A stretch of DNA of 55,802 nt, taken from assembly GCA_016841605.1 (NCBI GenBank), contig JAENYV010000020.1:1-55802 (forward strand). The letters run 5' to 3'. The notes under the pieces were generated by a model that saw only the letters and a program-made list of their open reading frames with translations, ran no database searches and was not told the origin of the DNA. The position numbers and the translations under genes were made by a program. Each line of letters begins with the position of its first letter. The stretch's first letter is position 1. Positions 1 to 55,460 of the stretch are shown here, one piece after another. This stretch comes from Dethiobacter alkaliphilus (lineage in GTDB: Bacteria > Bacillota > Dethiobacteria > DTU022 > UBA8154).

Positions 1-224
1 TTTACCCGATTCTATTGTTTGACATATGAAAATCTGCTTTATGCAACTATAGTGAAATGAGATAAACTCTTTTATTGAACTGGTTTAGGGTTACAGCAAA
101 TCCCACCGGCTATTAAATAGCCATTTGAAAACGCAATCGCTAAGCATTTTCGAATAAGATGAATTTTAGCGGAGATACTTATAAATAGGATACAGTTGAA
201 ATAAAAGAACGAGGAGGTTACTTT

Positions 225-4137: not shown

Positions 4138-7100
4138 TTGGGGAGGTTTAACATGAATGTATTCGACCTTTACCAGAAGTTAATTGAGAATTATTCTTCT
4201 TATGTTTCCAGCTTTATATACACCGGGCAAGAAAATGAGGAAGAGCGAAAACACATCATAAATAACCCACCGGATATTTTAATTACTAACTACGTCATGC
4301 TGGAAATGATATTAACCCGTATAAGAGATCGCAGCTTAATCAAAGCAGCACATTTGCTCCAGTTTCTAGTTTTCGACGAACTGCACACCTACAAGGGGGC
4401 GCCAGGGTGCAGATGTGGCAATGCTCATACGGCGCTTAAAAGACTATTGCAATACCGATTTATTAAAATATATAGGCACTTCAGCTACAATGATCACTGG
4501 CGGTGCATTTAACATGCAACAGAAAGAAGTTGCTAATATTGCATCGCTTATTTTTGGAAGTAATGTAAGCCCTGACTGCGTCATCGGTGAAACCTTGCGC
4601 CGCATAACCCCGAACAGGGATCTTTCCGACAGTAACTTTATTACCTCACTTAAACAAAGCATAATGGCTGATGCTGATGATAGTGCAGTATTTACCGGCT
4701 TTCAAGATTTTGTAGAAAATCCCCTCTCCATATGGATCGAAAGTACTTTTGGGATACGGCAGGAAGAGCAGGAGCAACGTTGGGTGCGTTGTTATCCAAC
4801 CCCTATAATAGGCCATGATGGTGCTGCCGATAAATTAAGTAGGGCTACTGGCATCCCCGCAGAACAGTGTGCTCTGGCAATACAGAACCGCCTTATGGCC
4901 GGTAGCGATACCCGCTACAAAAATCCTGAAAATGGCTACCCAGCATTCGCATTTAGGGTCCATGCTTTCTTTAGCAGGGGTGATACTGTCTATGCATCTT
5001 TAGATGATGAGAAAGATAGATACATTACTGTGGAAGGGCAGGAACTAGTGCCTGGTAAAAGGGATCATATTCTCCTTCCTCTCGCGTTTTGCCGGGAATG
5101 TGGACAGGAGTATTATACAGTTCGCGGTAGGCAAGAAAGGAAGGCCAATGAAATTTTTTTTGAACAGCGAGACCTGACCGACCGGGTTACAGATGAGGAG
5201 GAGTTCATTGGTTTTCTGTATCGAAATACTGGCGAACCTTGGCCTGAGCGTGATAGTGAAGCTTTAATGCAGCGGATTCCCGATGATTGGTTGGAAGTTA
5301 GCCCGGTGGCCGTAGCACGGCCATTACTATATTCAGCGAAACTGTAATCCAGGCCTTACGTGAGGGAACTACCAAATTAGCATCTAAAGAAGCACGCAAA
5401 CTTCAAAAAAAGGATACTGATCAAGCTCTGCGCAATGTGCTGGGTTACAGGCTCTACCAGGAATTAAAACGGGGTGTTGGCCGAGGTGCGCCAAAAACGT
5501 GAATCAGCTTTCCGTAGCGGCGACTTGCCCATCCTCTACTGCTTTCCCACTATGGAGCTCGGTGTGGACATCGCACAGCTTAACGTGGTCAACATGCGCA
5601 ACATTCCACCTACACCCGCCAATTATGCACAAAGAAGCGGCAGGGTCGGCCGCAGCGGTCAGCCTGCCCTTGTTTTCTCATACTGCGCCACAGGCAGCCC
5701 GCCTGATCAGTATTACTTCAAGCGTCAAACCCTCATGGTTCACGGTGCGGTAATGCCACCACGTATTGATCTTACTAACGAAGATCTCCTTGAATCGCAT
5801 ATCCATGCAATCTGGCTAGAGGAGTCCGACTTAGGACTAGGGGGATCGTTAAAAGAAATTTTGGATACAAGCGGCGAAAACCCTTCCTTAAGTTTGCTAC
5901 CACGTGTTGAAGCCAACCTCGGAGACATTGGTATCCGCCGGCGTGCCCTCAATAGGTCAATAAAAGTTATTAACGAACTTAAACAGTTGCTCGATATGAC
6001 TTTGGATTTGACGATGAGCGGATTAAAAGAATACTCAACAATTTGCCCCAAACTTTTAAACAGGCTTGTGCCCGCTGGCGAAATCTCTATTTTGCTGCCC
6101 TTCGCCAGCAAGTGTTAAACAATAAGATCATTACAGACGCCACAAGGACGTCTGCCGATAAACAACACGCCCAACGTTTGCGCCGCGAGGCAGAATCTCA
6201 GCTCAGGTTGCTAATCGATGAAAGCGGCGCTATCTTTTCTGATTTCTACAGTTATCGTTATTTTGCCAGTGAAGGTTTTCTTCCAGGTTACAACTTTCCC
6301 CGCCTGCCCCTTTCAGCATATATACCGGGGAGAAGAAGGCGCAACGATCGGATTGAATACATCTCCCGCTCCCGCTTCCTGGCTATCTCTGAGTTCGGGC
6401 CTCGCAGCTTCCTTTATCACGAGGGGTCTCATTATGAAGTTAGCAGGGTGATCATCCCAGCAACAGGCCGTGACGACAGTCTTATCACTACTACCACCGC
6501 CAAAATATGTTCTGCTTGCGGCTACCTTCATCCTATTCGGGCACATTTTAACCCTGATGTGTGCGAGTCCTGCGGTGAGTCTCTCCCGGCAGCGCTGTCG
6601 CAGCTCTGCAAAATGGAAAACGTTGTCATAAGGCGTCGCGAACGCATCAATTGTGATGAAGAAGAAAGAGTGCGCATGGGTTACGAGCCGAAGACGGTAA
6701 TGTGTTTTTCCCGCAGCGATCATACCATCTCTTGCCGGAAGGCTGTAGCTGAAAATAACGGGTTGCCCTTGCTAGAATTAATTTATGAACGTTCAGCAAA
6801 TATATGGCGTATAAACATGGGTTGGAAACGTCGCAAGGAAGATCGGCCGATTGGCTTTATTCTTGATGTTGAAAGAGGAATCTGGGGTAAAGAAAAAGAC
6901 CTTGTCAATACAACCGAAGATGATCCCGATGAGCGTATGAGCGCGCGGACAATGCGGGTTGTGCCGTTTGTGGAGGATTATAAAAACTGCCTTCTGATTC
7001 AGCCTGCTATTGATTTAGACATTAGAGCAATGGCCTCTCTTCAATCCGCCCTAAAAAATGCGATTCAAGTTTATTACCAGCTGGAAGAAGGAGAGCTGAC

Positions 7101-7167
7101 TGCGGAGCCCTTTCCTGAGCGCGAGGAAAGACGTATTCTTCTTTTCTACGAGGCTGCGGGCCCTTGA
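4138..7167 (+). pseudogene. Large SF2 helicase with DUF1998-type C-terminal half, decayed
   Basis: Segments of one long defence-type helicase can be read in several frames. 4150-4400 carries PPDILITNYVMLE and the DELH Walker B box. A one-base expansion of a G run near 4395 shifts the frame, and 4415-5347 continues with GTSATM (motif III). After a jumbled stretch, 5474-6118 holds FPTMELGVDI (motif V) and QRSGRVGRSG (motif VI). Another indel near 5990 leads to 6043-7167, with two CxxC zinc sites (CSACG, CESCG) and the EERRILLFYEA strand of DUF1998. The N-terminal Walker A part is missing, and the 3' end is fused to a methylase. Giant DUF1998 helicases occur in Druantia-, DISARM- and BREX-like islands; the exact system cannot be named. 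Confidence 0.7.
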
Positions 7168-22911: not shown

Positions 22912-22955
22912 GTTTTCCACTCTCCTTTTTTGTGAAAGTTAAAAACATAAATATT

Positions 22956-23002
22956 TGGTGGACCCGAGGAGGCTCGAACTCCTGACCTCTAGAGTGCGAT
23001 TC
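22956..23002 (-). other. 3' fragment of a tRNA-Ala-like gene (attachment-site scar)
   Basis: Read on the minus strand, the segment gives an anticodon-loop-like ATCGCAC, a variable region, a full T arm (CAGGAGTTCGAGCCTCCT-like) and CGGGTCC-A-CCA. The D arm and 5' acceptor are missing: the sequence beyond 23002 does not pair. A CGC anticodon and a T opposite position 3 fit alanine. Such 3' tRNA remnants are the normal product of tyrosine-integrase insertion into a tRNA gene. Confidence 0.7.
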
Positions 23003-23208: not shown

Positions 23209-23926
23209 CAGGGATATATCTGGAAAGGCCAGAGGTATCCCTGTATTATTGTGTATGATCGCCTATCATTCGATGTCCTGCCTCTTTTAAAGTATTTTAT
23301 TAAGCTATTTCATAATTATTGTTATTTACTTTTTTCCCTTTAATACTTTTTTTTTATTTAATTTTATCTTGCTGTATTCATCCCTATTTACAGGTTCATA
23401 ACTAAATACTTTCGTTGTTCATACTTTTGTAGGACTTTTTTACTTATGAACTGTGATTATGCTGTTAGGGGGGGGTCATAACATGACTGATAAAATATGA
23501 GTGCTTATTGGTTTACAATAAGTTTTGACTAGATCTCTGGAGAAAAGCTGGAAAACGATGGATGGTGCAGGGATATATCTGGAAAGGCCAGAGGTATCCC
23601 TGTATTATTGTTTATGATCTCCTATCATCCGATGTCCTGCCGTTTTAGGGTAGTTTTTTTAGTTTTCTTTCATAATAAGTTTTTTGACCAATTTTTACCT
23701 TTCATACTTTCTTTTCTATTTTCCTTTTACTTGATGTATTCATCTCTATTTACAGGTTCATAACTAAATACTTTCGTTGTTCATACTTTTGTAAGACTTT
23801 TTTACTTATGAACTGTGATTATGCTGTTCGGAGGGTTCATAACATGACTGATAAAAATATGAGTGCTTATAGGTTCACAATAAGTTTTGACCGGATCTCT
23901 GGAGAAAAGCTGGAAAATATGAAGGA
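23209..23926. repeat. Tandem direct repeat, unit about 359 bases
   Basis: Units start at 23209 and 23568. Both begin with the hairpin AGGGATA...CTGG-aaagg-CCAG...TATCCCT, then a C-A-T-A-C rich spacer, a TTCATACTTTT box, and the start of an RHH gene after GGTTCATAACATG-like sequence. The first unit has lost one A in its gene (ATAAAATATGA), so its frame closes at once; the second unit holds the intact gene. Confidence 0.85.
23483..23567 (+). pseudogene. RHH gene, decayed copy 1
   Basis: ATGACTGATAAA is followed by a stop because one A is missing relative to the intact copy at 23844. The remaining codons (SAY-FTIS) can be read in the next frame until the repeat unit ends. Confidence 0.75.
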
Positions 23927-24143
23927 TAGAAGCCAGTATGTACGAAATGCTGTATTATTTTACGGCCAGTTTGCAGAGATTTTTATGCAATCTTTAGAGG
24001 AGATACATTTGTCAATTTCTGCCCTTCAAAAAACGGTTGAAAGTTTTGAGGGACAAATTGACCAAAAATCAGAAAAAATAATACTTCCTGAAAAGGAACC
24101 AAATATTATTCGGGACAGCATCATGGAAATGCTGAAGGAATAG
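23844..24143 (+). CDS. Ribbon-helix-helix-like copy-control or regulator protein
   Basis: The 99-residue protein has a strand AYRFTISFD, a short helix RISGEKLENMKD and a second helix RSQYVRNAVLFYG, as expected of MetJ/Arc-type DNA-binding proteins, then a coiled-coil-like C-terminal part (LEEIHLSISALQKTVESFEG) and an EKEPNIIRDSIMEML tail. The start is supported by GGAGGGTTCATAAC. It is embedded in TTCATAC repeats that may be its operators and ends at an intrinsic terminator. Partial copies lie on both sides. Confidence 0.65.
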   Translation: MTDKNMSAYRFTISFDRISGEKLENMKDRSQYVRNAVLFYGQFAEIFMQSLEEIHLSISALQKTVESFEGQIDQKSEKIILPEKEPNIIRDSIMEMLKE

Positions 24144-24169
24144 GAGGTATTTCATGCAGTTATTCGTTG

Positions 24170-24194
24170 CCGGGGACTTGAAGCCCGGTTTTTT
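24170..24194 (+). terminator. Intrinsic terminator
   Basis: CCGGG pairs with CCCGG across a GACTTGAAG-type loop and is followed by six Ts. It closes the RHH transcript. Confidence 0.7.
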
Positions 24195-24195
24195 A

Positions 24196-24375
24196 TTCAT
24201 ACTTTTTGTGACATTTTTCATACTTGAATATAAAGAATAGTGCTCTGTTCATACATATTGTTAAAATTTTCATACTTAAACACAGAGAATTAATATTTCG
24301 TTCATACTTTTTTCGTATACTTTTTAAAGCGCATAAAAGCAAATTCCTATTACTAATTCTTTATTCTTCATACCC
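24196..24375. repeat. Iteron-like TTCATAC array
   Basis: TTCATAC begins at 24196, 24217, 24248, 24269, 24301 and 24367, mostly continued as TTT. The first four steps are 21, 31, 21 and 32 bases, which is two, three, two and three helical turns. Further copies are at 23418, 23701 and 23780. The array precedes two Rep-like genes, so it may be a replication origin, or operators for the RHH protein. Confidence 0.65.
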
Positions 24376-24424
24376 ATTTTTAATAATGTAATGCTGTTAT
24401 TGTTGAATAGGGAGGGATCATAAC

Positions 24425-24547
24425 ATAACCCAAAAATTCTTACAGATTAACCAAGAAATTTTGATCCGGAAACCAGAAAAAATAAAACTTCCTGAAAAGG
24501 AACCAAATATTATTCGGGATAGCATTATGGAAATGTTGAATATGTAA
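24425..24547 (+). pseudogene. RHH gene, decayed copy 3
   Basis: After GGGAGGGATCATAAC the start codon is ATA instead of ATG. The middle of the gene is deleted, and the tail KLPEKEPNIIRDSIMEML matches the intact copy almost exactly, down to TAAGGAGGTGCTTC before the next ATG. Confidence 0.75.
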
Positions 24548-24558
24548 GGAGGTGCTTC

Positions 24559-25233
24559 ATGCAGTTATCAAGTGTTATTTCAAAAAAGGATATTTATTTC
24601 TTATACCAGCCTATTTACAATTTAGTAACAAATGAAGTCATTGGGGCGGAGGCTTTAATGCGCGGGCCGGATGGCCAGCCGACCGGTTTTATTTTTGAGG
24701 AAGCTAAGAAACTGGGTTTTTGTCGGGAACTGGATTATTTGTGCCTGCTAAAGTGCATGGAGTCGGCCCCGCCAATTCCCCGGCTTTTCGTCAATGTGTA
24801 CCCTTCAACTTTACTGTGGTTGGTGAATAGTGAAAAGGTTAAAGAATTGTTGAAAATGTATCCCTCTGACATGGTTACCTTTGAACTCGTTGAAATGGAA
24901 AATGTCAGAGGATACATATCGGAGCTGGCCGATGCCGTAAGTGAGCTTAAAAAAAGCGGATATAGCGTAGCTGTAGACGATATCAGTTCCGGATTTGAGC
25001 GCCTTTTGCTTGTCTCTTTACTGAAACCGGAATATATCAAGCTTGACCGTCCTCTTATTAAAAACCTTGGAAGCAGAATTAACCAGGTGATTATCAAAAA
25101 CCTATCTAACATGGCCAGGGAGCTTAATGCGATTTTTATAGCAGAGGGTATTGAGACGAAAGATGAGCTCAAGAAGGTGATGGAACTGGGAGTACAATTC
25201 GGTCAGGGTTTCCTGCTGGGAAAGCCCGGTTAA
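24559..25233 (+). CDS. EAL-domain protein (probable c-di-GMP phosphodiesterase)
   Basis: A stand-alone EAL domain: E31-A32-L33 in GAEALMRG, FVNVYPS (Asn), FELVEME (Glu), AVDDISSG (the DDFG-like pair), IKLDRPL (Lys/Asp) and IAEGIET, ending GQGFLLGKP. All metal ligands of active EAL enzymes appear present, so hydrolysis of cyclic di-GMP is likely. There is no GGDEF, PAS or membrane part. It starts 12 bases after a decayed RHH gene with AAGGAGGTGC and ends at a strong terminator. A signalling gene in this position of a plasmid-like element may modulate host attachment or transfer. Confidence 0.85.
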   Translation: MQLSSVISKKDIYFLYQPIYNLVTNEVIGAEALMRGPDGQPTGFIFEEAKKLGFCRELDYLCLLKCMESAPPIPRLFVNVYPSTLLWLVNSEKVKELLKMYPSDMVTFELVEMENVRGYISELADAVSELKKSGYSVAVDDISSGFERLLLVSLLKPEYIKLDRPLIKNLGSRINQVIIKNLSNMARELNAIFIAEGIETKDELKKVMELGVQFGQGFLLGKPG

Positions 25234-25274: not shown

Positions 25275-25301
25275 TAGCCCTGTTTTTGCAGGGCTTTTTT
25301 T
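25275..25301 (+). terminator. Intrinsic terminator
   Basis: AGCCCTG (25275-25281) pairs with CAGGGCT (25289-25295) and is followed by seven Ts. Confidence 0.9.
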
Positions 25302-25324: not shown

Positions 25325-25687
25325 ATGGATGAAAGCAGCGGTCTTCAAAGAAAAAGCTGTGATGATGGAGTTTATGTTAAACAAAGAAGTATTTGGTCTC
25401 AGAAAGATTTAAACATTTATGAAAAAATGGTTTGGATGTGCCTTGAAAAGTATGCAAACGGCAATCTCCCTGCCTGGCCGTCAAGAAGTACATTAGCTAA
25501 AGAGTGTTCTATTAGCATTGCCCAAGTTAAAAAAACCATAAACAGTCTTATTGAAAAGGGATTAATTGGAAGAAGAATCAGAAAAAATGAAGGTAATTTT
25601 CAAACCAACCTTTACAGTCTTTTTCATCCAAACCTGAGAAATAAACAGGCGTCTTATATAAACTACACAAAGGATGAAAAAAAATGA
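25325..25687 (+). CDS. Small HTH (Rep-like) protein
   Basis: The 120-residue protein has a winged-helix pattern typical of plasmid initiators: LNIYEKMVWMCLEKYANG, WPSRSTLAKECSISIAQVKKTINSL and a wing (GLIGRRIRKNEG). AAAAGGAGGT precedes the ATG. The next gene starts within its stop codon and encodes a second, longer protein of the same design, so the two are coupled. A role in replication initiation at the nearby repeats is inferred. Confidence 0.6.
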   Translation: MDESSGLQRKSCDDGVYVKQRSIWSQKDLNIYEKMVWMCLEKYANGNLPAWPSRSTLAKECSISIAQVKKTINSLIEKGLIGRRIRKNEGNFQTNLYSLFHPNLRNKQASYINYTKDEKK

Positions 25688-26688
25688 CGACAGAAAAAAG
25701 AATAGACGATATAAAAATCCAAGGAATTTATGACTTTGGCTACGGAATCGTAGCAAAAATGGTCATGTGCGACAACAGCATAAGCATTGGAGCGAAAGCA
25801 CTATATGCATATATTTGTACCTTCGCAGGTTCAGAGAAAAAAGCTTGGCCGGGGAGGGCAAAGATATGTTCTGATCTCAACATCAGCAAGGACAGTTTTT
25901 CAAAATATATAAAAGAATTAAAAACACGCAACTATATTGCTGTTCAACATCGAAAAAATGAAAAATGTCAATTTATAAGAAACGTATATATAATTATTAC
26001 GCAGCTTGAAGATCCTCAGCAGAAAAAACCGTGTCCGGAAAAATCAGACACGGCACAAGATCCTAAAAAGTCGCAATCGGAGCCGTGTCCTAAAAAACCA
26101 TGTCCGGAAAAACCGTGTCCGGAAATTTCGGACACTAACATTAACAGATCTTTTAAAATTACCAGTACTAAAAAAAAACAACGTGATCCGGATCAGGTTA
26201 TCGTGAGGGAACCCGATCCGGATTCTTTTTCCCATAAGCCCGTTGTTGTTTCTTTCAGAAATAAGTCATGTCATAAGAAAGAAAGTAATTGCAGTAAAAA
26301 TGACGATAGTTCTTTTGCTGTTGGGGATAACTTTAAAGATGTGGTTCAGACTCTTATGAAATATGGGGTTGATCAGAATAAAGCCGAGGAGCTGGCCGGG
26401 TCTTTTAGTGCAGAGCGAATAAAGAAGGTGCTAAATTATACCAGCTCAAAGAAACCCACTAAAACATCCGGATACATTATCAGCGCGCTGGAAAACGGGT
26501 GGAGCATACCAGAGGATATGAACTCACAGGCCATAGATGAAGAAAAAAAGGATCTGCTTAAGGAGCGAACCAGAGAAATACTTAAAAATCTTGAGGAAGC
26601 ACGGAAGAATTCTGCTCCTCTTAGCGTTCAGGCAGAACATATTGGTGCTATTTTATCACGTTTAAGATGCACCGCTGCCCCTGGCTAA
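25684..26688 (+). CDS. Replication-initiator-like HTH protein with CPEK repeats
   Basis: Residues 20-105 form the same winged-helix unit (SIGAKALYAYICTFAG, WPGRAKICSDLNISKDSF, a basic wing). Residues 116-150 are a low-complexity linker with repeated P-C-P-E-K units whose DNA contains several CCGTGTCC boxes. The C-terminal part (VVQTLMKYGVDQNKAEELAG, ...SSKKPTKTSGYIISALENGW) looks like a DnaD/Rep C-terminal domain with a YI--AL--GW helix. It overlaps the previous gene by four bases. Theta-type Firmicute initiators often carry their origin in such a linker. Confidence 0.65.
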   Translation: MTTEKRIDDIKIQGIYDFGYGIVAKMVMCDNSISIGAKALYAYICTFAGSEKKAWPGRAKICSDLNISKDSFSKYIKELKTRNYIAVQHRKNEKCQFIRNVYIIITQLEDPQQKKPCPEKSDTAQDPKKSQSEPCPKKPCPEKPCPEISDTNINRSFKITSTKKKQRDPDQVIVREPDPDSFSHKPVVVSFRNKSCHKKESNCSKNDDSSFAVGDNFKDVVQTLMKYGVDQNKAEELAGSFSAERIKKVLNYTSSKKPTKTSGYIISALENGWSIPEDMNSQAIDEEKKDLLKERTREILKNLEEARKNSAPLSVQAEHIGAILSRLRCTAAPG

Positions 26689-26999: not shown

Positions 27000-27437
27000 A
27001 TGGGTGTCAATAAAAGCAATTATCCGCATACGATCTATATTCCCATTACAGAAGAAATGCACAAGGCTATTAAAAAAATGGCTAAATTGAAAGGAATTCC
27101 TAAGACAACATTAATTAGAAAAACAATTAGCAGTTACTTAAAATTAGAAGATGAAGAGAATTCGATGGATTTGATACAGAAAATGGTTGCTGATGCAGTT
27201 GAAGAAAAGCTTAAACCAGTTGAAAACCGGCTGGCAAAAATCACTGCAAAGACGGCGATGGCAGCGGTAATGACAATGTATGTTGAAGCTGCACTTCTAG
27301 GCCGGCATGAAAAAGATGTTGTTAATATATTTCGGGAAGCTAGGCAGAAAGCAATTGCCTTTGTCCAATCCGGAATACCGAACACAGGTCAGTTGGAAAA
27401 TTTGGCTAAAAATGCTGCTGCAAAGGGTGATGACTAA
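27000..27437 (+). CDS. RHH relaxosome accessory protein (MobC/NikA-like role)
   Basis: The N-terminal 50 residues are a ribbon-helix-helix unit (HTIYIPITEEMHKAIKKMAKLKGIPKTTLIRKTISSYL). A helical C-terminal part follows. It ends one base into the relaxase start (TAATGG), so the two are coupled. Such proteins bind oriT and help the relaxase open the nic region. A TGGGAGGTGATG site lies upstream. Confidence 0.7.
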   Translation: MGVNKSNYPHTIYIPITEEMHKAIKKMAKLKGIPKTTLIRKTISSYLKLEDEENSMDLIQKMVADAVEEKLKPVENRLAKITAKTAMAAVMTMYVEAALLGRHEKDVVNIFREARQKAIAFVQSGIPNTGQLENLAKNAAAKGDD

Positions 27438-28726
27438 TGGCTATCTCAAATGCTCCGCTGATTATCCTGGCAAGTTTTCACCAACATAATTCGGATACGG
27501 TTAATAAACATACTCGACATATAGAGTATATTGCTACACGGCCAGGGGTTGATCGGGGTGCCAACCGTGAAGACCTGGAGCCCGAAGATATTCCGGCTGA
27601 CATTCACACGGAATATATATCTGAGCGTCCGGGTTCATCCGGCCTGTTTGGTTATCGGGAAATTGATAACTATAAAGATATTCAGAAAGAGCTGGCTGAA
27701 AATAAAGGATTTAGCTGGCGATTCGTCGTCTCGCTCCGAGCCGACGATGCTGTTAATATGGGCTATGATGTTCGGGATAAATGGGAAGAAACTCTTAAAA
27801 GCCAGATGAATACCATTGGAGAAAAAATGGGCATTGATCGAAGCAATCTGCGCTGGGCTGCTGCTTTTCATGTTCATCCACAGCAAATTAACTGCCATGC
27901 CCATATCGTTATTTGGCAGAAAGATGTTGTACGCACTATAGGGAAATTATCAGCTAAAGCAATGAAAGAGATCAAAAGGACCTTCGGGAACGAAATTTAT
28001 CGAGAAGAACGGTTGCATCAAATGCAGATTAAAACCCTTATGCGTGATTACATCCGAGATAATGCCAAGGGGAGTATTTCAAAAGCAAAAGAATTGATCC
28101 GGGAGCTGCGGGAGGCGAAAAAAGAAGGTGAGATAGATTTAAAAGCCTGGGGATTTTATGAAAAAGCTTCTTTATCTCCAGAATTGCATAAGGAGATAGA
28201 ACTTACCGAAAAACTACATTCTTTATCCAGGAATATGCCGGGCAAAGGCCGGGCGGCACTGCAGTTTATGCCTCCGAACGTAAAACAGGAAGCCAGAGAA
28301 ATCGCGGACTGGATACTCCGGCAGCCGCACTTCCGGCAGCAGGTAGAAAAGCATGGCAAAGCAGCAGAGCAGTTGTACGGCACCTATGTTAAGGATGCTG
28401 TCAAATTGCAGCAAGCCGGGGATAAAGCATATTCGGACATCCGGGACAGGGTGGCCAATATCGTTGTTAGGGCCGGTGCTGAATTAAACAGGGCCGCCAA
28501 ACAAGAAAAATGGGATCAAAAGATGAAAAAGATCTCAGCAACCCGGACTGTCCGGACCTGTTGGAGATCAGCTTGGCAGGCGGTAGAGCAGGGAAGGGTA
28601 CAAGCGGAAGCGCAGGCCGAATTGGAAAAACGGAGAATGGTTGCAAAGGAACAAGCACAAAAACTAAAGGAAAAATACAAGGGCAAAGATTATCAGGACA
28701 AAGAAGAAGAGATAAAAAGGATGTGA
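27437..28726 (+). CDS. MobP3-family relaxase
   Basis: The 429-residue protein has SWRFVVSLRADDA-type motif near residue 95 and the HUH metal site HVHPQQINCHAHIVIW at about 145-160, where the histidines bind the divalent ion. The catalytic tyrosine is probably among those in the first third (for example in HIEYIATRPG, a motif typical of MobP3). The C-terminal half is a long charged coiled coil. The relaxase nicks oriT and carries the T-strand to the coupling protein encoded eight bases downstream. Confidence 0.85.
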   Translation: MAISNAPLIILASFHQHNSDTVNKHTRHIEYIATRPGVDRGANREDLEPEDIPADIHTEYISERPGSSGLFGYREIDNYKDIQKELAENKGFSWRFVVSLRADDAVNMGYDVRDKWEETLKSQMNTIGEKMGIDRSNLRWAAAFHVHPQQINCHAHIVIWQKDVVRTIGKLSAKAMKEIKRTFGNEIYREERLHQMQIKTLMRDYIRDNAKGSISKAKELIRELREAKKEGEIDLKAWGFYEKASLSPELHKEIELTEKLHSLSRNMPGKGRAALQFMPPNVKQEAREIADWILRQPHFRQQVEKHGKAAEQLYGTYVKDAVKLQQAGDKAYSDIRDRVANIVVRAGAELNRAAKQEKWDQKMKKISATRTVRTCWRSAWQAVEQGRVQAEAQAELEKRRMVAKEQAQKLKEKYKGKDYQDKEEEIKRM

Positions 28727-28733
28727 GAGAGCC

Positions 28734-30614
28734 TTGTTAAACCGAAAGACAGGAATAATCATTCTGGTTCTGCTATTTATCGTAGCGGACCTTTTTATTT
28801 TGCCGCTGTTGGTCCAGTTCCCCCTGTTTTTTGCAGCTAATCCAATGGCGGCAGCCGGGAATTTTTCGGAATTTGTTAAGGCCAATCCGTTTGCTGGACC
28901 GAAGGAACTGCTTGGCGATAATGACTTGCGCAAGCTTTGGTTTTACCTGCAGCCGCTTGTTGTCTCCGGATTCCTTTGGATTATGTGGCAGCCGGGAGTG
29001 CAACGAAAAAAAAACCGCATAGGAGACGGAGTAGGAGGTCCGGAGCAAGCCGAATATTCAATCACTCACGGCAGCAGCAGGTGGCAGACCAAGAAAGAAA
29101 TCGACAGGAATACAACAATATGGAAAGTGGATCAGAAGCCCCCGAAAGGGGGTGTTGTTTTGGGATACGATGAAAGGCAGGGCAAAGCATGGCTGGAGAC
29201 AAACGACTTGCACACCCTGATCATCGGTGCAACCAGGTCCGGAAAAACCCGGAGACTGATATTTCCAACCATCTGGGAGCTTGGAAAAGCTGGTGAAAGC
29301 ATGATCCTGACAGATCCCAAAGGCGAGCTTTACGAACGAAGCAGAGACTACCTCCGGAGTCAGGGCTATAGCATCACATTGTTAGACTTTCGTAACCCCC
29401 GCAGGGGCAACCGCTGGAATCCTATTCAGTCTGTTGTTGATGCAGTTGAACAAAATGACTTCAGCCGGGCAAGTGAGACGGCCTGGGATATTGCACATAT
29501 GATCGTTCACCAGAAACCTCATTCCGGAGACCCGGTTTGGGCTAATGGTGAAGAGTCAACTATTGCAGCATTGATTCTGCTGTCCGTGATCGAAGCACCT
29601 GCAAATAATTTTAAGCATATGGGGACGGCTTATACCATTCTCTACAGCTTGGGAGCTGCCGATGAGGACGGGAAACTGCCACTTAACGACTATATTACCG
29701 ACTTGCCAACCGGACACCTGGCGAAAGCAGCGTATGGAACTGCATTACTTGCACCTTATCGACAAAGAGGCAGCTTTTTTACTGGCGCAAGCGCAGACCT
29801 GCGTTTGTGGGCTGACCCAAGCATAGTTAATTTAACCAGCAAACAGGATCATGATCTGAGCATGCCGGGTAAAGAAAAAACAGCAGTATTCCTTTGCATT
29901 CCAGACGAAAAAAGCACCAGGCACATCCTTGCCAGTCTCTATATCGACCAGGTTTACCAGCTACTCGTTTCTTTAGCCGTCCAGCATGGGGGGCGGCTGC
30001 CCGTCCGGGTGAATTTTCTTCTTGATGAATTCGGAAATATGCCTGCAATTGGCGATTTCGATAAAAAACTTACTGTTGCCGGGGGCAGAAACATTCGTTT
30101 CGCTCTGGTTACTCAGGATATTGCACAGCTAAAACGTCACTACAAGGAAACAGCCCAGACGATTACTGGTAATTGTCATACCTGGATCTATTTAGTCACG
30201 GCTGATGTTGAAACAGCTAAACTAATCAGCGCAAAGACCGGACAATACACCGTTGAAACAGACAGCTATTCCAGTAGCGTAAGGGACAAAGATTCAAGTG
30301 TGGGGGTGAACTATAGCACGACCGGCAGAGCATTGCTTTTGCTGGATGAGGTTATGCGCTGGCCACAGGATATGAGCTTGGTACTTCAGTCCAGAAATTT
30401 TCCGATGAAACTTTCTCTTCCGGATCTCAGCCGCTGGCCTGCTAATAAAGAGCTTATCCCCGGAGAGCCTGAACAGGAAATGACAATAGAAATGCCGGAA
30501 ATATGGCTGCCGGAGATGGGAACGCAGTTGATAAAAAAAGCAAGTCAAGAACCCATTCTGCACAGACCAAAAGAACGGGATGCGGAGCCTGAACAGAGCA
30601 ATATGAATTTTTAA
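28734..30614 (+). CDS. virD4: VirD4/TraG type IV coupling protein
   Basis: Two N-terminal membrane helices (about residues 6-34 and 70-86) precede a cytosolic ATPase. Walker A is GATRSGKT at 165-172, Walker B is LLDEFGNMP near 428-435, and VTQDIAQLK is the Q-motif after it. It recruits the relaxase-DNA complex to the secretion channel. A TTG start is used, or the annotation misses a few residues. Length (626) is normal for Gram-positive TraG/VirD4. Confidence 0.9.
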   Translation: MLNRKTGIIILVLLFIVADLFILPLLVQFPLFFAANPMAAAGNFSEFVKANPFAGPKELLGDNDLRKLWFYLQPLVVSGFLWIMWQPGVQRKKNRIGDGVGGPEQAEYSITHGSSRWQTKKEIDRNTTIWKVDQKPPKGGVVLGYDERQGKAWLETNDLHTLIIGATRSGKTRRLIFPTIWELGKAGESMILTDPKGELYERSRDYLRSQGYSITLLDFRNPRRGNRWNPIQSVVDAVEQNDFSRASETAWDIAHMIVHQKPHSGDPVWANGEESTIAALILLSVIEAPANNFKHMGTAYTILYSLGAADEDGKLPLNDYITDLPTGHLAKAAYGTALLAPYRQRGSFFTGASADLRLWADPSIVNLTSKQDHDLSMPGKEKTAVFLCIPDEKSTRHILASLYIDQVYQLLVSLAVQHGGRLPVRVNFLLDEFGNMPAIGDFDKKLTVAGGRNIRFALVTQDIAQLKRHYKETAQTITGNCHTWIYLVTADVETAKLISAKTGQYTVETDSYSSSVRDKDSSVGVNYSTTGRALLLLDEVMRWPQDMSLVLQSRNFPMKLSLPDLSRWPANKELIPGEPEQEMTIEMPEIWLPEMGTQLIKKASQEPILHRPKERDAEPEQSNMNF

Positions 30615-37021: not shown

Positions 37022-37441
37022 GTGAACTTTTACATTGCTACGAGCCTTGAAAATGCTGCTCGGGTGAGGGAGCTGGCAACGATTCTTAAAAGCTGGGGCT
37101 GGCATCAAACCTACGACTGGACGGTTCACGGAAGGGTATATGGATAAAATATCCTGGCAAATGTGGCTCTTAATGAATTTGATGGTTTAATCAACGCAGA
37201 CCTGTTAATAGTGTTACTGCCGGGTGAAAAGGGAACCCATACTGAGCTTGGTATTGCCCTGGGAAACAGAGTAAAGGTGGTGCTTCACTCCGAAGACCCG
37301 ATACCCTTTAATCCTTATGGTAAAGAAACTTGCTCCTTTTATTGGGACTCCAGTGTAAAAAGGATCATTTGTCCATTCAGCGACCTTGCAGATCTGCTGC
37401 AAAAAAGTTTTGGAAATATAATCAATGCCGGAAAGGAGTAA
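37022..37441 (+). pseudogene. Nucleoside 2-deoxyribosyltransferase-like protein with internal TAA
   Basis: A GTG start (GGGGAGGGGG upstream) reads NFYIATSLENAARVRELA, then YDWTVHG, meets TAA at 37145-37147, and continues in the same frame as LNEFDGLINADLLIVLLPGEKGTHTELGIALG. These are motifs of the deoxyribosyltransferase fold (Y-I-A; D-W-T; P-G-x2-G-T-x2-E-L-G). About ten residues seem to be missing around the stop, so it may be a deletion plus nonsense. The piece from 37163 could be translated separately. Confidence 0.7.
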
Positions 37442-37446
37442 AAAAA

Positions 37447-38277
37447 ATGAGTAATTGTAAGATCATAGCCATCGCCAACCAAAAGGGAGGGGTAGGGAAG
37501 ACCACAACAGCGGTCAACTTGGGTATTGGCCTTGCGGTGAAAGGAAAAAAGGTGCTGCTGGTGGACGCGGACGCCCAAGGGAACCTGACGGACTCCCTCG
37601 GCTACAAAGCCCCCGACAACCTGCCTATTTCGCTGGCCACCGTCCTGACCAAAACCATGCTGGAGGAACCGTATGAGCCTGACGAGGGCATTCTCCGCCA
37701 TGCGGAAGGTATTGACCTGATACCCGGCAACATTGAACTATCCGCCATTGAGGTGTCCCTTGTCAACACTATGAGCCGGGAAACAATATTGCGCAGCTAC
37801 ATCAATGCCGTCAAAGACAGGTACGATTATGTGCTGATTGATTGTATGCCTTCTTTGGGCATGATGACCATCAACGCCCTGGCCGCCGCCGACAGCGTTA
37901 TTATCCCCGTGCAGGCCCACTATCTGCCCGCCAAGGGAATGACGCAGCTTTTACAGACCATTGCCAGAGTAAGGCGGCAAATCAACCCCAAGCTGACCAT
38001 TGACGGAATTTTGCTCACAATGGTTGACAACCGCACTAACTTTGCCAAAGACATCTCTTTCATCCTGCGGCGGGACTATGGCGACAAACTGCGCGTTTTC
38101 CAGACAGAAATTCCCCTGTCCATCCGGGCCGCTGAAACCAGTGCGCAGGGCAAAAGCATTTATGCCCCCGACCCGCATGGTCTGGCGGCAAAAGCCTATG
38201 AAGCCCTGACAAAGGAGGTGCGGGACATTGGCGAAAAACGATGTGCGAAACAGCATCAAGCTGACCTCAGTCGATGA
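37447..38277 (+). CDS. parA: ParA-type partition ATPase
   Basis: Residues 13-20 are the deviant Walker A (KGGVGKTT); VLLVDADAQGNLT and VLIDCMPSLGMM are the switch regions; AHYLPAKGM follows. The ATG at 37447 follows AAAGGAG. The end overlaps parB by 50 bases. ParA moves plasmid DNA over the nucleoid or keeps an ICE stable when excised. Codon use is more GC-rich than in the transfer operon, suggesting a separately acquired module. Confidence 0.9.
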   Translation: MSNCKIIAIANQKGGVGKTTTAVNLGIGLAVKGKKVLLVDADAQGNLTDSLGYKAPDNLPISLATVLTKTMLEEPYEPDEGILRHAEGIDLIPGNIELSAIEVSLVNTMSRETILRSYINAVKDRYDYVLIDCMPSLGMMTINALAAADSVIIPVQAHYLPAKGMTQLLQTIARVRRQINPKLTIDGILLTMVDNRTNFAKDISFILRRDYGDKLRVFQTEIPLSIRAAETSAQGKSIYAPDPHGLAAKAYEALTKEVRDIGEKRCAKQHQADLSR

Positions 38278-39157
38278 CCTGTTCACCACCGAAGAAAGTC
38301 GTTCCGAGCAGCAACGGGAAAAAGTGCTGGACATTCCCCTGGCGGAAATCAGCGATTTTCCCAACCACCCGTTTAAAGTAAAAACGGATGAAGCCATGCT
38401 GGAAATGGCAGACAGCGTAAAACAATACGGCGTGTTAGTTCCCGGTCTTGTGCGACCCAAAGCTGGCGGTGGTTATGAAATGCTGGCCGGGCACCGACGT
38501 AAAAAAGCAAGCGAGCTTGCTGGCAAAGAAACCATGCCCTGCATTGTCCGTGAGTTGGACAACGAAGCTGCCACAATAATCATGGTGGACAGCAATCTGC
38601 AACGGGAAAACATCCTGCCGAGCGAAAGAGCCTTCGCCTATAAAATAAAGCTCGAAGCCATAAAGCGGCAAGCGGGTAGACCAAGTAAAGAAAATTCTAC
38701 CCAAGTTGGGCAGGATTTAAGAGGTAAGTATTCTGTTGAAATTCTAGGAGAACAGGTCGGAGAAAGCCGTAATCAAATTCAACGATATATTCGCCTCACT
38801 GAACTGCTCCCGTCCATTCTCGAAATGGTGGACGAAAGGCAGATTGCTTTTAATCCCGCCGTGGAAATCTCATACTTGACCGAAAAAGAACAGCAAAACC
38901 TGTTTGAAACCATGCAGTCGGAGAATTGCGCTGTCTCCCTTTCGCAGGCCCAACGGCTGAAAAAGCTCAGTCAGGACGGCAGGCTGAACCTGGATGTTAT
39001 CTTCTCCGTTCTCACCGAGGAAAAGCCAAACCAAAAGGAAAAATTCAATATCCGGCGCGAGCGCATCGACCGTTTTTTCCCAAAAAATTTTACCGAAAGA
39101 CAAAAGGAGGATTTAATTGTTCGGCTGCTGGAGAGCTGGTACAAAGAGCAAGAATAA
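38228..39157 (+). CDS. parB: ParB-type partition protein
   Basis: The N-terminal nuclease-like fold includes IPLAEISDFPNHPFKV, GVLVPGLVRPK and the ML-AGHRR box (ParB box II), then NLQRENILPSERAFAYK (box III), and a helix-turn-helix (ISRNQI-like GESRNQIQRYIRL). It binds centromere-like parS sites, which I could not locate. The TTG at 38228 has AAAGGAGGTG upstream. The overlap with parA indicates coupling. Confidence 0.9.
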   Translation: MAKNDVRNSIKLTSVDDLFTTEESRSEQQREKVLDIPLAEISDFPNHPFKVKTDEAMLEMADSVKQYGVLVPGLVRPKAGGGYEMLAGHRRKKASELAGKETMPCIVRELDNEAATIIMVDSNLQRENILPSERAFAYKIKLEAIKRQAGRPSKENSTQVGQDLRGKYSVEILGEQVGESRNQIQRYIRLTELLPSILEMVDERQIAFNPAVEISYLTEKEQQNLFETMQSENCAVSLSQAQRLKKLSQDGRLNLDVIFSVLTEEKPNQKEKFNIRRERIDRFFPKNFTERQKEDLIVRLLESWYKEQE

Positions 39158-45087: not shown

Positions 45088-45417
45088 ATGGAAAAACTTT
45101 ATTCTATTTTGAAGCCTTACGATAACTGGTATAATGATAAAGGGGACGAAAAAAATTTAGAGGCAAAAAAGGCCCTGAAGGATTTTTACCAGGAATTGAA
45201 GAAGTTAAAGCCTTCTATAAAGTATGAAAAGAACGTGCAGCATTTATCATATATCCCCTATCTTATTAGAATTAAAAAGGCTCTTGATGGAAAGAAGTAT
45301 ATGAGAGCGTGCAATGAACTTATTTCTCTAATGCATTACGAACCTTTTTTTCAGGGGAGGATTTATTACAACACCCTCAATCTCTTGGAGAAAGAGGTGA
45401 TGAAGAATTATGCTTAA
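45088..45417 (+). CDS. Hypothetical helical protein, 109 residues
   Basis: The protein is Lys-rich and helical (KALKDFYQELKKLKPSIKYEKNVQHL; IRIKKALDGKKYMRACNELISL). It overlaps the following DUF6710-like gene by eight bases, so they form a coupled pair. TTCGGAGGGATATAA lies before the ATG. Its function is unknown. Confidence 0.55.
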   Translation: MEKLYSILKPYDNWYNDKGDEKNLEAKKALKDFYQELKKLKPSIKYEKNVQHLSYIPYLIRIKKALDGKKYMRACNELISLMHYEPFFQGRIYYNTLNLLEKEVMKNYA

Positions 45418-46099
45418 AAAGATAGTAAAAAGGAAAGTTATTTTGGATAAAATAGAGCGAGCCTACGGGTTTAAACATGCCCTTGAGTTTACCCACCAGG
45501 CCCTAGAAGCCGAAAAGACGAAAGAAGATAAAATCCTTATACTGGATTTTATGCTCGACGTGATTAAGAGAGACCTAAAATACGATTTTCTCACGGATAT
45601 CTTTTATAGGGAAGAATATTTTGATAGAGGGAGGAAGATTCGCCTTCCTTTCCCATATTCTTATTATGACGAAACTGAGCAAAAGATATCAATTTTTGAA
45701 AGGAAAATCGGGACAAAAAAAGTAGATCTATCCGAAGAATGTGTTCTGGTTTTTCCATGGCATAGAAAAAGAATAAGAGAAAATATTAAAAACATTGGGA
45801 GTAAAGAATTTATATACGACAAATATAATCATTTTGCTTACTATTTTTCGCCGGTGGGGATATGTTTCGTATATAATGGGATGCATTCGACAACCGCAGG
45901 GATAGGATTTAAAAAAGGATTTATCGAAGCTTCCGAATACGACATGACGGGACCTTTGGGACACGTCTATACGGACGGGTTATACTGGTATAACAGCCAC
46001 AACAACTTAAAGCTGAAAGATGGACTGCTTGATTTTCGTATAGGAATTATTTTTGAGCTATTGAAATTAAAATATCAAATAGAGGAGGGACTTAAATGA
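45410..46099 (+). CDS. DUF6710-like protein
   Basis: The 229-residue product ends with CFVYNGMHSTTAGIGFKKGFIEA, EYDMTGPLGHVYTDGLYWYNSH, a pattern I associate with DUF6710, preceded by VLVFPWHRKRIRENI and KYNHFAYYFSPVG. Conserved His, Asp and Tyr residues give it an enzyme-like look, but no reaction can be assigned. With the preceding coupled gene it forms a two-gene cargo unit at the right end of the plasmid-like block. Confidence 0.5.
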   Translation: MLKKIVKRKVILDKIERAYGFKHALEFTHQALEAEKTKEDKILILDFMLDVIKRDLKYDFLTDIFYREEYFDRGRKIRLPFPYSYYDETEQKISIFERKIGTKKVDLSEECVLVFPWHRKRIRENIKNIGSKEFIYDKYNHFAYYFSPVGICFVYNGMHSTTAGIGFKKGFIEASEYDMTGPLGHVYTDGLYWYNSHNNLKLKDGLLDFRIGIIFELLKLKYQIEEGLK

Positions 46100-52501: not shown

Positions 52502-54514
52502 ATGGAACTTTTATATTTATGGATTAATCGTAGTGATCATGATTGTATAAAGCAACAAGAGTTTAATTTTTCTCCTTTATACAAGTTTAAAGTTGATGAT
52601 CTTAAAAATCCCCAAAACCTTTCTTTTGAAAATAAAGAGCCAATAAATCTTTTCAAAAGTAACGAGGATGAAGGCAGAATCAATAACATTACTGCTGTGG
52701 TGGGTTCTAATGGAGCAGGAAAAACAACATTATTATCATTTATTGCAAATAATAATTCTTTTTCTAAGTTCAATGGCGGACTTGAATATGAAAGAAATGA
52801 TGCAAATGAATATGAATATCAAAAATCCATTTATGTATTCATTGAGAATGAAAAACTGATTGTATATCATAATCTTGAAGAAAAACTCACTTGCAATTTC
52901 GATATATTACCTAAAAATGTATTTTGGAACAGAGAGCGTAAAACAGCACAACTTAGTAATGTTAGGAAACAGCTTATAATATATCTCTCTAATGCTTCCT
53001 TTGTACCTGAATCATTGTTAACATATTCGAAAAGCGATAAAACATATAACATTAATTTGCATCAGAGATCTATGAATCTGGTTGCACATAACTTTTATAA
53101 AGCAATTTTCGAAAAAACTGGTTTAGATGATATAACAGAAAATGACGATGGATTTGCTTGGGTCATTAAGGAGAATAGAGACGATAGGAAATTTCAAGAG
53201 TTAATAGATATACAGTATTATCAATATTTATTAGAGAATGAAATTAATGATTTTGTTGGAAAATTCAAAAGTACAATATATATTTACTTTGATAATATAA
53301 TTAGACTTATTGAAAGTAAATATAATGATGATTTTGAAATCATTAAAGCTAGTAATGACAAATCGAGTGGGCAAAAATCTGATAAGGCCCCATTAAGCAA
53401 GACGTATTTTGATAAAATTGCTGATTTTAAAAATCATTACAAATTTAATGAAATCGAAGATGTAAGAAGAAAGAACTGTACAATTGTTTTATATATAAAC
53501 TTATTATTTGAGGTGTTCTTCTATGAAGAAAATTTTGAATTACCTACAATAGATTTTAATAAAAGATTATATGAGCAATTGAAAAAATTGCCTTTATCAG
53601 AAAAATATAAAGCATATCTTGAGGATATTAAAAATATTGATGATATTTTATATTTATGCCCCATGAATGAGAATATAATTGATAATTCGGATGATTTAGC
53701 ATGTTCATATGAAAAAGTAGTATATAAAGAGAACGCTTCTGACTTTTACAAACATATACGCAATATATTCAAAGAAAGAAAATCATTTACTCTTAGATAT
53801 ATAAGGGTAAAAAATCTTGAAATGAGTTCAGGAGAACGTGCAATGCAAAATATGTTCTCTTGGCTTGTGTTGATGCCAGAACTAGATAAAATTATGGATA
53901 TGGAAAGATCGAATTATACAAGCAAACTTTTACTTATTGATGAGATTGATCTTTATGCCCATCCTGAATGGCAAAGAAAAATTATGGACCAACTGATTTC
54001 TACTATTAATGAAATAGAAAAAGAAAAGCCAGTTCAGATTGTCGTTTCATCTCATTCGCCTTTGATTCTTTCCGATTTTCCACGACAAAATATAATCTAT
54101 ATGAATAAACGTGATGGGAAAACAGTTGTAGATAATAACGATAATCATAAACAATCATTCGGTGCTAATATTTACACATTGCTTAAAGAAGCTTTTTTCC
54201 TTGAAAATGGTGCTGTTGGTGAATTTGCAAAGAAAAAAATCTATGAAGTCTATGAAGAATTTAAATCAAAAGAACATTCGGATAATTACGTTGAATCAAA
54301 ACAAAATGAGCATCAATCCATTATTAATATGATTGGCGATGAATTCGTTAGACATGAAATGCAAAGGTTATTTGATAAGAAATACGGTAAAGTAGCTCAA
54401 CCAATTATGAACGAGATACCTCCAAATATCGATGAACTACAGAAATTAAAGAAACAGCTTGAAAATTCATTAGATGCAGTTAATAAGATGCTAGGTGGTG
54501 TTCGATACGATTAA
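52502..54514 (+). CDS. Defence AAA/ABC-like ATPase (PtuA-like)
   Basis: Residues 68-76 are the Walker A (GSNGAGKTT) of an SMC/OLD-like ATPase. EMSSGERAM near residue 440 is the signature motif, LLLIDEIDLYAHPEWQ near 478 is the Walker B with its His switch, and IVVSSHSPLIL follows. The middle is a long helical insertion. The gene is AT-rich with a GGGGAGATTGT leader. It overlaps the HNH gene by 20 bases, the organisation of Septu-type (PtuA/PtuB) and related restriction systems in which the ATPase senses invaders and licenses the nuclease. Confidence 0.8.
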   Translation: MELLYLWINRSDHDCIKQQEFNFSPLYKFKVDDLKNPQNLSFENKEPINLFKSNEDEGRINNITAVVGSNGAGKTTLLSFIANNNSFSKFNGGLEYERNDANEYEYQKSIYVFIENEKLIVYHNLEEKLTCNFDILPKNVFWNRERKTAQLSNVRKQLIIYLSNASFVPESLLTYSKSDKTYNINLHQRSMNLVAHNFYKAIFEKTGLDDITENDDGFAWVIKENRDDRKFQELIDIQYYQYLLENEINDFVGKFKSTIYIYFDNIIRLIESKYNDDFEIIKASNDKSSGQKSDKAPLSKTYFDKIADFKNHYKFNEIEDVRRKNCTIVLYINLLFEVFFYEENFELPTIDFNKRLYEQLKKLPLSEKYKAYLEDIKNIDDILYLCPMNENIIDNSDDLACSYEKVVYKENASDFYKHIRNIFKERKSFTLRYIRVKNLEMSSGERAMQNMFSWLVLMPELDKIMDMERSNYTSKLLLIDEIDLYAHPEWQRKIMDQLISTINEIEKEKPVQIVVSSHSPLILSDFPRQNIIYMNKRDGKTVVDNNDNHKQSFGANIYTLLKEAFFLENGAVGEFAKKKIYEVYEEFKSKEHSDNYVESKQNEHQSIINMIGDEFVRHEMQRLFDKKYGKVAQPIMNEIPPNIDELQKLKKQLENSLDAVNKMLGGVRYD

Positions 54515-55460
54515 GATAAATTTAACCGCTGAGCAGAGGGCTAAAATCGAAAAATTGATAAAAAAAGATGTTGATAAAAAACTCTATTCTAAGATAGAGA
54601 AAATATCCAAATATCTTAATGATAAAAAATTCATTAAAACAGCAGAGCTTATTGACTCAAAAGAAAAAGTTTACAATATATGTTTGCTTGACAGTAAATC
54701 TGCCTTAAATGATTTTCAAGAAAAATCCAAAAAAGCATTTGAGGAAGATTCAAAAGGAAAGTGTACAACCTTAAGGGGAAAAACTCAAGAATATATAAAA
54801 ACTGAATATGAAAAATTGTATGAGAATTTTAGCAATCGTGATGTTGCCTATAAGATATTAAAAGTAATGAATGTAAATGTATGCCCATATTGTAATAGGC
54901 AATATACTTTTACAGTAATAAAAAAGACAAGTACAGAAAAAAAGATAAGACCGGAATTTGATCATTTTTTCCCTAAATCTAATTTTCCATTATTAGCAGT
55001 ATCAATTTATAATTTGGTGCCATCTTGTGGTTTGTGTAATAAAGGTAAATCAGCCTCACTCTCGGAAAATTTTTTATATCCTTATGAAGAGTCGTTTGAA
55101 GATAAGGGGATACACTTTGAAATCCCCAATATTATCGGTAATTTGTTAGACCAGGAAGAAATAACTGTAAAGCTTGAGCCGGTTAAAAATCATGAGGACT
55201 TAATAAAACAATATAATGATAGTTTTAAAATTGATCAACTGTATGAAGAGCATTCTGATTATATATCGGAGTTGTTATATAAGAATTATATTTTCAATGA
55301 TGAAGCAATTGAAAGTATTTATAGGTCATTTAAAGAAATTTTGAATAGCCCATCAAAATTAAAACATCTAATCTTTGGAAATTATGAACCGGATAAATTT
55401 AATCAAAGACCTCTATCTAAACTTACAAAGGATATAATTCAACAATTGGTTCAAAAATAG
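54495..55460 (+). CDS. HNH endonuclease partner (PtuB-like)
   Basis: The nuclease site is visible: C130-P-Y-C133 and C178-G-L-C181-N form a structural zinc site, with D156-H157 in PEFDHFFPKS and the N-L-V-P-S-C segment as the HNH core. An N-terminal helical region and a C-terminal helix bundle flank it. Translation begins at GTG 54495 or 54498, inside the ATPase gene, so the two are coupled. As in Septu systems the nuclease would act on DNA or tRNA; substrate is not known here. Confidence 0.8.
   Translation: MVFDTIKINLTAEQRAKIEKLIKKDVDKKLYSKIEKISKYLNDKKFIKTAELIDSKEKVYNICLLDSKSALNDFQEKSKKAFEEDSKGKCTTLRGKTQEYIKTEYEKLYENFSNRDVAYKILKVMNVNVCPYCNRQYTFTVIKKTSTEKKIRPEFDHFFPKSNFPLLAVSIYNLVPSCGLCNKGKSASLSENFLYPYEESFEDKGIHFEIPNIIGNLLDQEEITVKLEPVKNHEDLIKQYNDSFKIDQLYEEHSDYISELLYKNYIFNDEAIESIYRSFKEILNSPSKLKHLIFGNYEPDKFNQRPLSKLTKDIIQQLVQK

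Follow-up and report, generated by a model that had tools for sequence, protein, structure and literature searches.

A candidate parC-type box array beside a ParR-like gene and an EAL-domain gene in an integrative conjugative element of Dethiobacter alkaliphilus

Six TTCATAC boxes at positions 24196–24375 (+ strand) of a 55,802-nucleotide stretch of Dethiobacter alkaliphilus DNA, hereafter the window, probably form a parC-type centromere/operator cluster. As judged from sequence comparison, they would serve a ParR-like ribbon-helix-helix (RHH) protein encoded at 23844–24143, within an integrative conjugative element (ICE) at a tRNA-Ala gene. Dimers of this protein probably sit on TTCATA[AC] boxes, where they would act as autorepressors and load the DNA to form a partition complex. 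We propose coating, autorepression and the partition complex by analogy with R1, with ParMRC of Clostridium perfringens and with srpMRC of SXT (PMC4949242, PMC9426499, PMC4489591).

The exact TTCATAC boxes of the array start at 24196, 24217, 24248, 24269, 24301 and 24367, all on the + strand. Three more had been described upstream among repeats of an RHH gene, and we found them at 23418, 23701 and 23780. In total the window holds 16 TTCATAC boxes compared with 6.7 ± 2.5 expected. Among 3,000 first-order Markov sequences none contained any non-trivial 7-mer six times in 287 bp, and six TTCATAC boxes occurred in none of 20,000 simulated sequences. The preliminary description had taken the boxes as helically phased. 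The spacings that it gave, i.e., 21, 31, 21 and 32 bp, are correct, and boxes 1–5 are strongly phased at 10.5 bp (Rayleigh R 0.99, p about 1e-4 versus random placement); the sixth box, however, follows after 66 bp, out of phase, and R drops to 0.78 (p 0.02) for all six. Moreover, boxes 1–2 and 3–4 lie in one 43-nt direct repeat (79% identical, offset 52 bp). The spacings are thus not independent, since boxes 1–4 stem from a single 52-bp tandem duplication, and with box 6 off phase the evidence from phasing is therefore weaker than it appears. A more informative spacing emerges when TTCATAC boxes are taken together with TTCATAA boxes (23309, 23395, 23669, 23757 and 23836) and inverted boxes (about 23445 and 23807), neither of which the preliminary description listed.

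The region is a three-fold duplication of a unit made of boxes and parR. Copy A (23209–23555, + strand) comprises a hairpin repeat, boxes at 23309, 23395 and 23418, the inverted box at about 23445 and a truncated, frameshifted parR; it shares direct repeats D1, D2, D4 and D5 with copy B and gives a partial RHH match with stops. Copy B (23568–24143) has a parC-like leader (23669–23842, + strand) with boxes at 23669, 23701, 23757, 23780 and 23836, spaced by 32, 56, 23 and 56 bp. The last of these abuts the start of the intact ParR-like gene (23844–24143, + strand), which encodes 99 amino acids with the tail IIRDSIMEML. A GC hairpin with T6 behind it (24169–24194, + strand) is a weak terminator candidate, its predicted stability being −10.6 kcal/mol, but its z score against shuffles only −0.7. 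Copy C (24196–24546) contains the six-box array with its 52-bp tandem unit, i.e., a remodelled parC leader, and a parR remnant (24408–24546, + strand; repeats D3 and D4) that has kept its C-terminal tail (match at 24431–24538) and is missing the DNA-binding part. Its start codon reads ATA in place of ATG; this and the frameshift in copy A were read from the sequence. We suggest that after duplication of the unit copy A decayed, copy B stayed intact with the ancestral spacing, and copy C was remodelled by the 52-bp tandem duplication and lost the DNA-binding part of parR. Because of this loss, copy C directly precedes the next gene, which encodes an EAL domain.

The repeats also contain a 35-nt hairpin, CAGGGATATATCTGGAAAGGCCAGAGGTATCCCTG, at 23209–23243 and 23568–23602, inside a 79-nt repeat of 94% identity. 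It occurs at these two places only in the genome, and at unit B it folds better than shuffled sequences (z −3.2). An Rfam scan gave tRNA alone above threshold, and we judged sub-threshold matches near the hairpin to be chance.

With parR copies A and C broken and parM missing (see below), the whole region might be a non-functional remnant, the duplicated copies of a lost ParMRC locus being in decay. We consider this unlikely: copy B has an intact parR gene, and six perfect boxes persist in copy C although the sequence between them has diverged (52-bp units 79% identical).

The RHH protein itself had no Pfam, NCBIfam or PDB match, and a single-sequence AlphaFold prediction gave a poor model in which the ribbon had turned into a helix. 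Searches in the same family and class returned only the copies of its own genome, an initial scan of genome contigs found nothing, conservation was too low for an alignment-based scan of these contigs, and plasmid and viral searches with the RHH, EAL and Rep proteins gave no close relative. At phylum level, all five short-ORF RHH matches whose neighbours were read follow a ParM-like gene, and profile searches added more such loci. Five elements share the order ParM, gap with array, ParR, further genes, MobC and MobP3 relaxase, and VirD4 was detected within the stretch in four of the five; the window has the same backbone. One relative (L094) has ParM, gap, ParR and an HTH_36 gene in this order, and its ParR has the closest tail, IIRESIMDI versus IIRDSIMEM in the window. 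Identity between the RHH protein and its ParR-like homologues is 23–29%. We hence call it ParR-like, a name that rests on synteny and weak similarity. A DUF6710 gene of the window (45410–46099) has relatives near parR in two further loci (L068 and L074), another link to ParMR elements.

The surroundings agree with the earlier suggestion of a plasmid-like element. The left end is marked by attL (22954–23002), a 49-bp copy of the tRNA-Ala(CGC) 3′ end, which is identical to positions 2524–2572 of another contig of the genome (G000:C13). There, the att site comes with an intact tRNA-Ala gene, a tyrosine integrase gene and an HTH_17/AlpA-like gene. The att repeat together with this tRNA gene and integrase places the window in an ICE, with continuity between the two contigs (C12, that of the window, and C13) presumed. 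To the right of the array, all on the + strand, follow a MobC-like RHH gene before the relaxase (27000–27437), the gene for the MobP3 family relaxase (27437–28726; NCBIfam NF041499, 5.9e-64), that for a VirD4-type coupling protein (28734–30614; Pfam T4SS-DNA_transf, 6.2e-62), TrbL-/VirB4-type genes of a type IV secretion system, and parA and parB (37330–39157), which give the element a second partition system; Spo0J-type parS sites were absent from the window. The element occupies 33 kb of the window, and the contig ends at 55802, before the element's middle.

Two further loci of the window resemble defence genes. At its right end (52502–55460), an AAA ATPase gene and a second gene match the PADLOC candidate pair PDC-M62A/B and are distantly PtuA/PtuB-like. 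At 4415–7167 lie split helicase-like ORFs, apparently a broken gene, two of whose three pieces resemble parts of the defence helicase DruE.

We found no ParM match in the window, neither next to parR nor in the rest of the element's 33 kb that it covers. In relatives parM precedes the array, and this place is now taken by the att site; parM thus appears to be gone from its usual position, and its function may have been lost with it. Elsewhere in the genome (G000:C15:887–3508, L036), two tandem ParM-like genes occur, with a small ParR-like ORF behind one of them and Tad-pilus-like genes a few kb away; there is no TTCATAC array at this place. That these genes belong to the element is not supported, as their contig and that of the window share only a 55-bp start. 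These starts (window 1–55 and G000:C15:1–55) are nearly identical and likely represent a repeat at which the assembly broke. Because no ParM was found in the element's 33 kb, and since ParA and ParB are also present, partition by the array is doubtful today. For it to be a partition site, a ParM would have to act in trans or the protein would need another partner.

The relatives disclosed a rule for box spacing. In 10 loci TGTN2-3ACA boxes are more frequent than expected in the gap between parM and parR (all p ≤ 0.006), with spacings of 56–58 bp alternating with 13–15, 23–25 or 32–35 bp; 62 of 67 spacings obey this rule, using locus-specific box variants in four loci. Fourteen new loci were fetched after the rule had been made, and 66 of their 77 spacings fit it, versus about 13% by chance. 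Thirteen of these loci show the rule, and one (L172) clearly fails. The number of independent cases is lower than 24, since several loci nearly duplicate one another, but the set includes at least six box sequences. The preliminary description had named homologous loci without phased boxes as a finding that would speak against it; regular boxes are present in 23 of the 24 parR-like loci, with a different box sequence.

Copy B follows the same rule: all four of its spacings fall within it (p 0.003 for random placement), and its last box lies at the parR start codon as in the related locus G319a. Its inverted box at about 23807 is outside the rule. The reported array with its steps of 21, 31, 21, 32 and 66 bp is off the 57-bp rule, so that copy B alone fits, with only five boxes. 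The box sequence has diverged. TTCATA[AC] differs from the TGT..ACA type and from the box of every relative, and no relative among the ParM-parR loci examined carries a TTCATAC array. A triple-box TTCATAC pattern was absent from viral contigs and had 27 matches in genome contigs, mostly from unrelated phyla. The three matches that we read (L114, L115 and L131) are tandem repeats of low complexity and thus unrelated to the array; one lies within a coding repeat rich in Met, Gly and Asn.

The ribbon has changed along with the box. Relatives with TGT..ACA-type boxes have Y/F/H-[SGT]-FR, whereas the protein of the window has YRFT with TTCATA. This suggests that specificity shifted while the architecture was conserved, a view drawn from one case. 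With ribbon residues and box both altered and the spacing kept, the window offers a natural test of specificity versus architecture. The rule has steps of 57 bp in alternation with short ones of about 13.5, 24 or 34 bp, which lie one helical turn apart from each other, and it would place a direct structural limit on DNA wrapping by ParR. It lets parC sites in such conjugative elements be recognized whatever their box sequence, a task beyond the reach of homology searches.

The array has an unexpected neighbour, the gene of a predicted c-di-GMP phosphodiesterase. The preliminary description had placed the array before Rep-like genes; the next gene is instead a stand-alone EAL-domain gene (24559–25233, + strand, 224 amino acids, Pfam EAL 1.5e-37), whose unit ends in a terminator-like hairpin with a T-run (25276–25295, + strand), and the Rep-like genes start only at 25325. 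Alignment to solved EAL enzymes showed that the main catalytic motifs are present. The best match outside the genome (L155) lies in a cluster of ParM, RHH, X, EAL, HTH_36 and VirD4 genes, in which the RHH gene was recognized by position only; because of this cluster, the link to EAL may predate both the element and the loss of parM. A second stand-alone EAL gene of the genome (G000:C11:140394–141062; L154 6389–7123) is 77% identical to that of the window. Its catalytic motifs have changed, with EGL in place of EAL, His in place of Asn and VDN in place of VDD, and upstream lies one TTCATAC box without an array.

The array is most likely an operator common to parR and the EAL gene. We regard control of these two genes as at least as likely as partition, and the roles are not exclusive. 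A narrower version that overlaps with this view assigns partition no role at all: a domesticated RHH autorepressor would control parR and the EAL gene from a purely transcriptional operator. In its favour, the boxes run up to the parR start and lie ahead of the EAL gene, parM is not found where it usually lies, and the element has its separate ParA/ParB pair. However, the number of boxes and their conserved alternating spacing exceed the need of a simple operator, and a ParR-like C-terminal tail has been retained twice; we hold this version to be possible, yet rather doubtful. In a more far-reaching and improbable scenario, ParR and its centromere were uncoupled from ParM and coupled to the phosphodiesterase, such that site occupancy, and with it the element's copy state, would set c-di-GMP levels in the host. 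A limited literature search turned up neither the spacing rule nor a ParR-EAL unit.

The boxes had also been discussed as an iteron replication origin, at which the HTH_36/DnaD-like proteins would bind and open the element's origin. Their genes, one HTH_36/replication-initiation-like (25325–25687, + strand) and one HTH_36/DnaD-like (25684–26688, + strand), lie 1 kb downstream of direct, phased boxes. Moreover, an HTH_36 gene comes after parR and array in L094, its product being 46% identical over 100 amino acids to that of the second gene. In other relatives, however, the array precedes parR without an adjacent HTH_36 gene, and its place between parM and parR is the same irrespective of the gene that follows, be it mobC, an HTH_36 rep gene or a DUF6710 relative; across homologues the array does not consistently adjoin or lie inside a rep gene. 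In the window, a terminator and the EAL gene stand between array and rep genes, and the duplicated unit includes parR, not rep. We consider an origin quite unlikely. The relatives' array tracks parR rather than a rep gene. The other early suggestion, multiple sites in an array that the RHH protein would bind, is supported.

ParMRC systems on ICEs and chromosomes are already known. In SXT/R391 ICEs, the small DNA-binding protein of srpMRC binds upstream DNA that contains four 13-bp repeats (PMC4489591). This resembles the window in being a ParMRC-type locus on a plasmid-like ICE with repeats upstream of a small DNA-binding protein gene. In contrast to the window, with its duplicated unit, the EAL gene behind it and no parM at the expected place, SXT has srpM beside srpR, and SrpR is without homology to known ParR. 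ParMRC of C. perfringens pCW3-like plasmids is similar in that an RHH ParR goes with direct repeats; these vary in sequence from family to family and thereby give specificity (PMC9426499). There, parC lies upstream of parM with four 17-bp repeats, whereas the boxes of the window have 7–9 bp and lie directly before parR, and the 57/13–34 spacing rule of the window's relatives is a further difference. ParM/ParR modules also reside on chromosomes, as ParCMR of Desulfitobacterium and C. botulinum; in C. botulinum, cParR binds palindromic repeats, and no conserved cparC sequence was found among strains (PMC12270681). The family of the window differs in its conserved spacing and its ICE context. Finally, in parMRC of plasmid R1, ParR binds a direct-repeat array, two sets of five repeats, as the centromere (PMC4949242), with a gene order and spacing different from those of the window.
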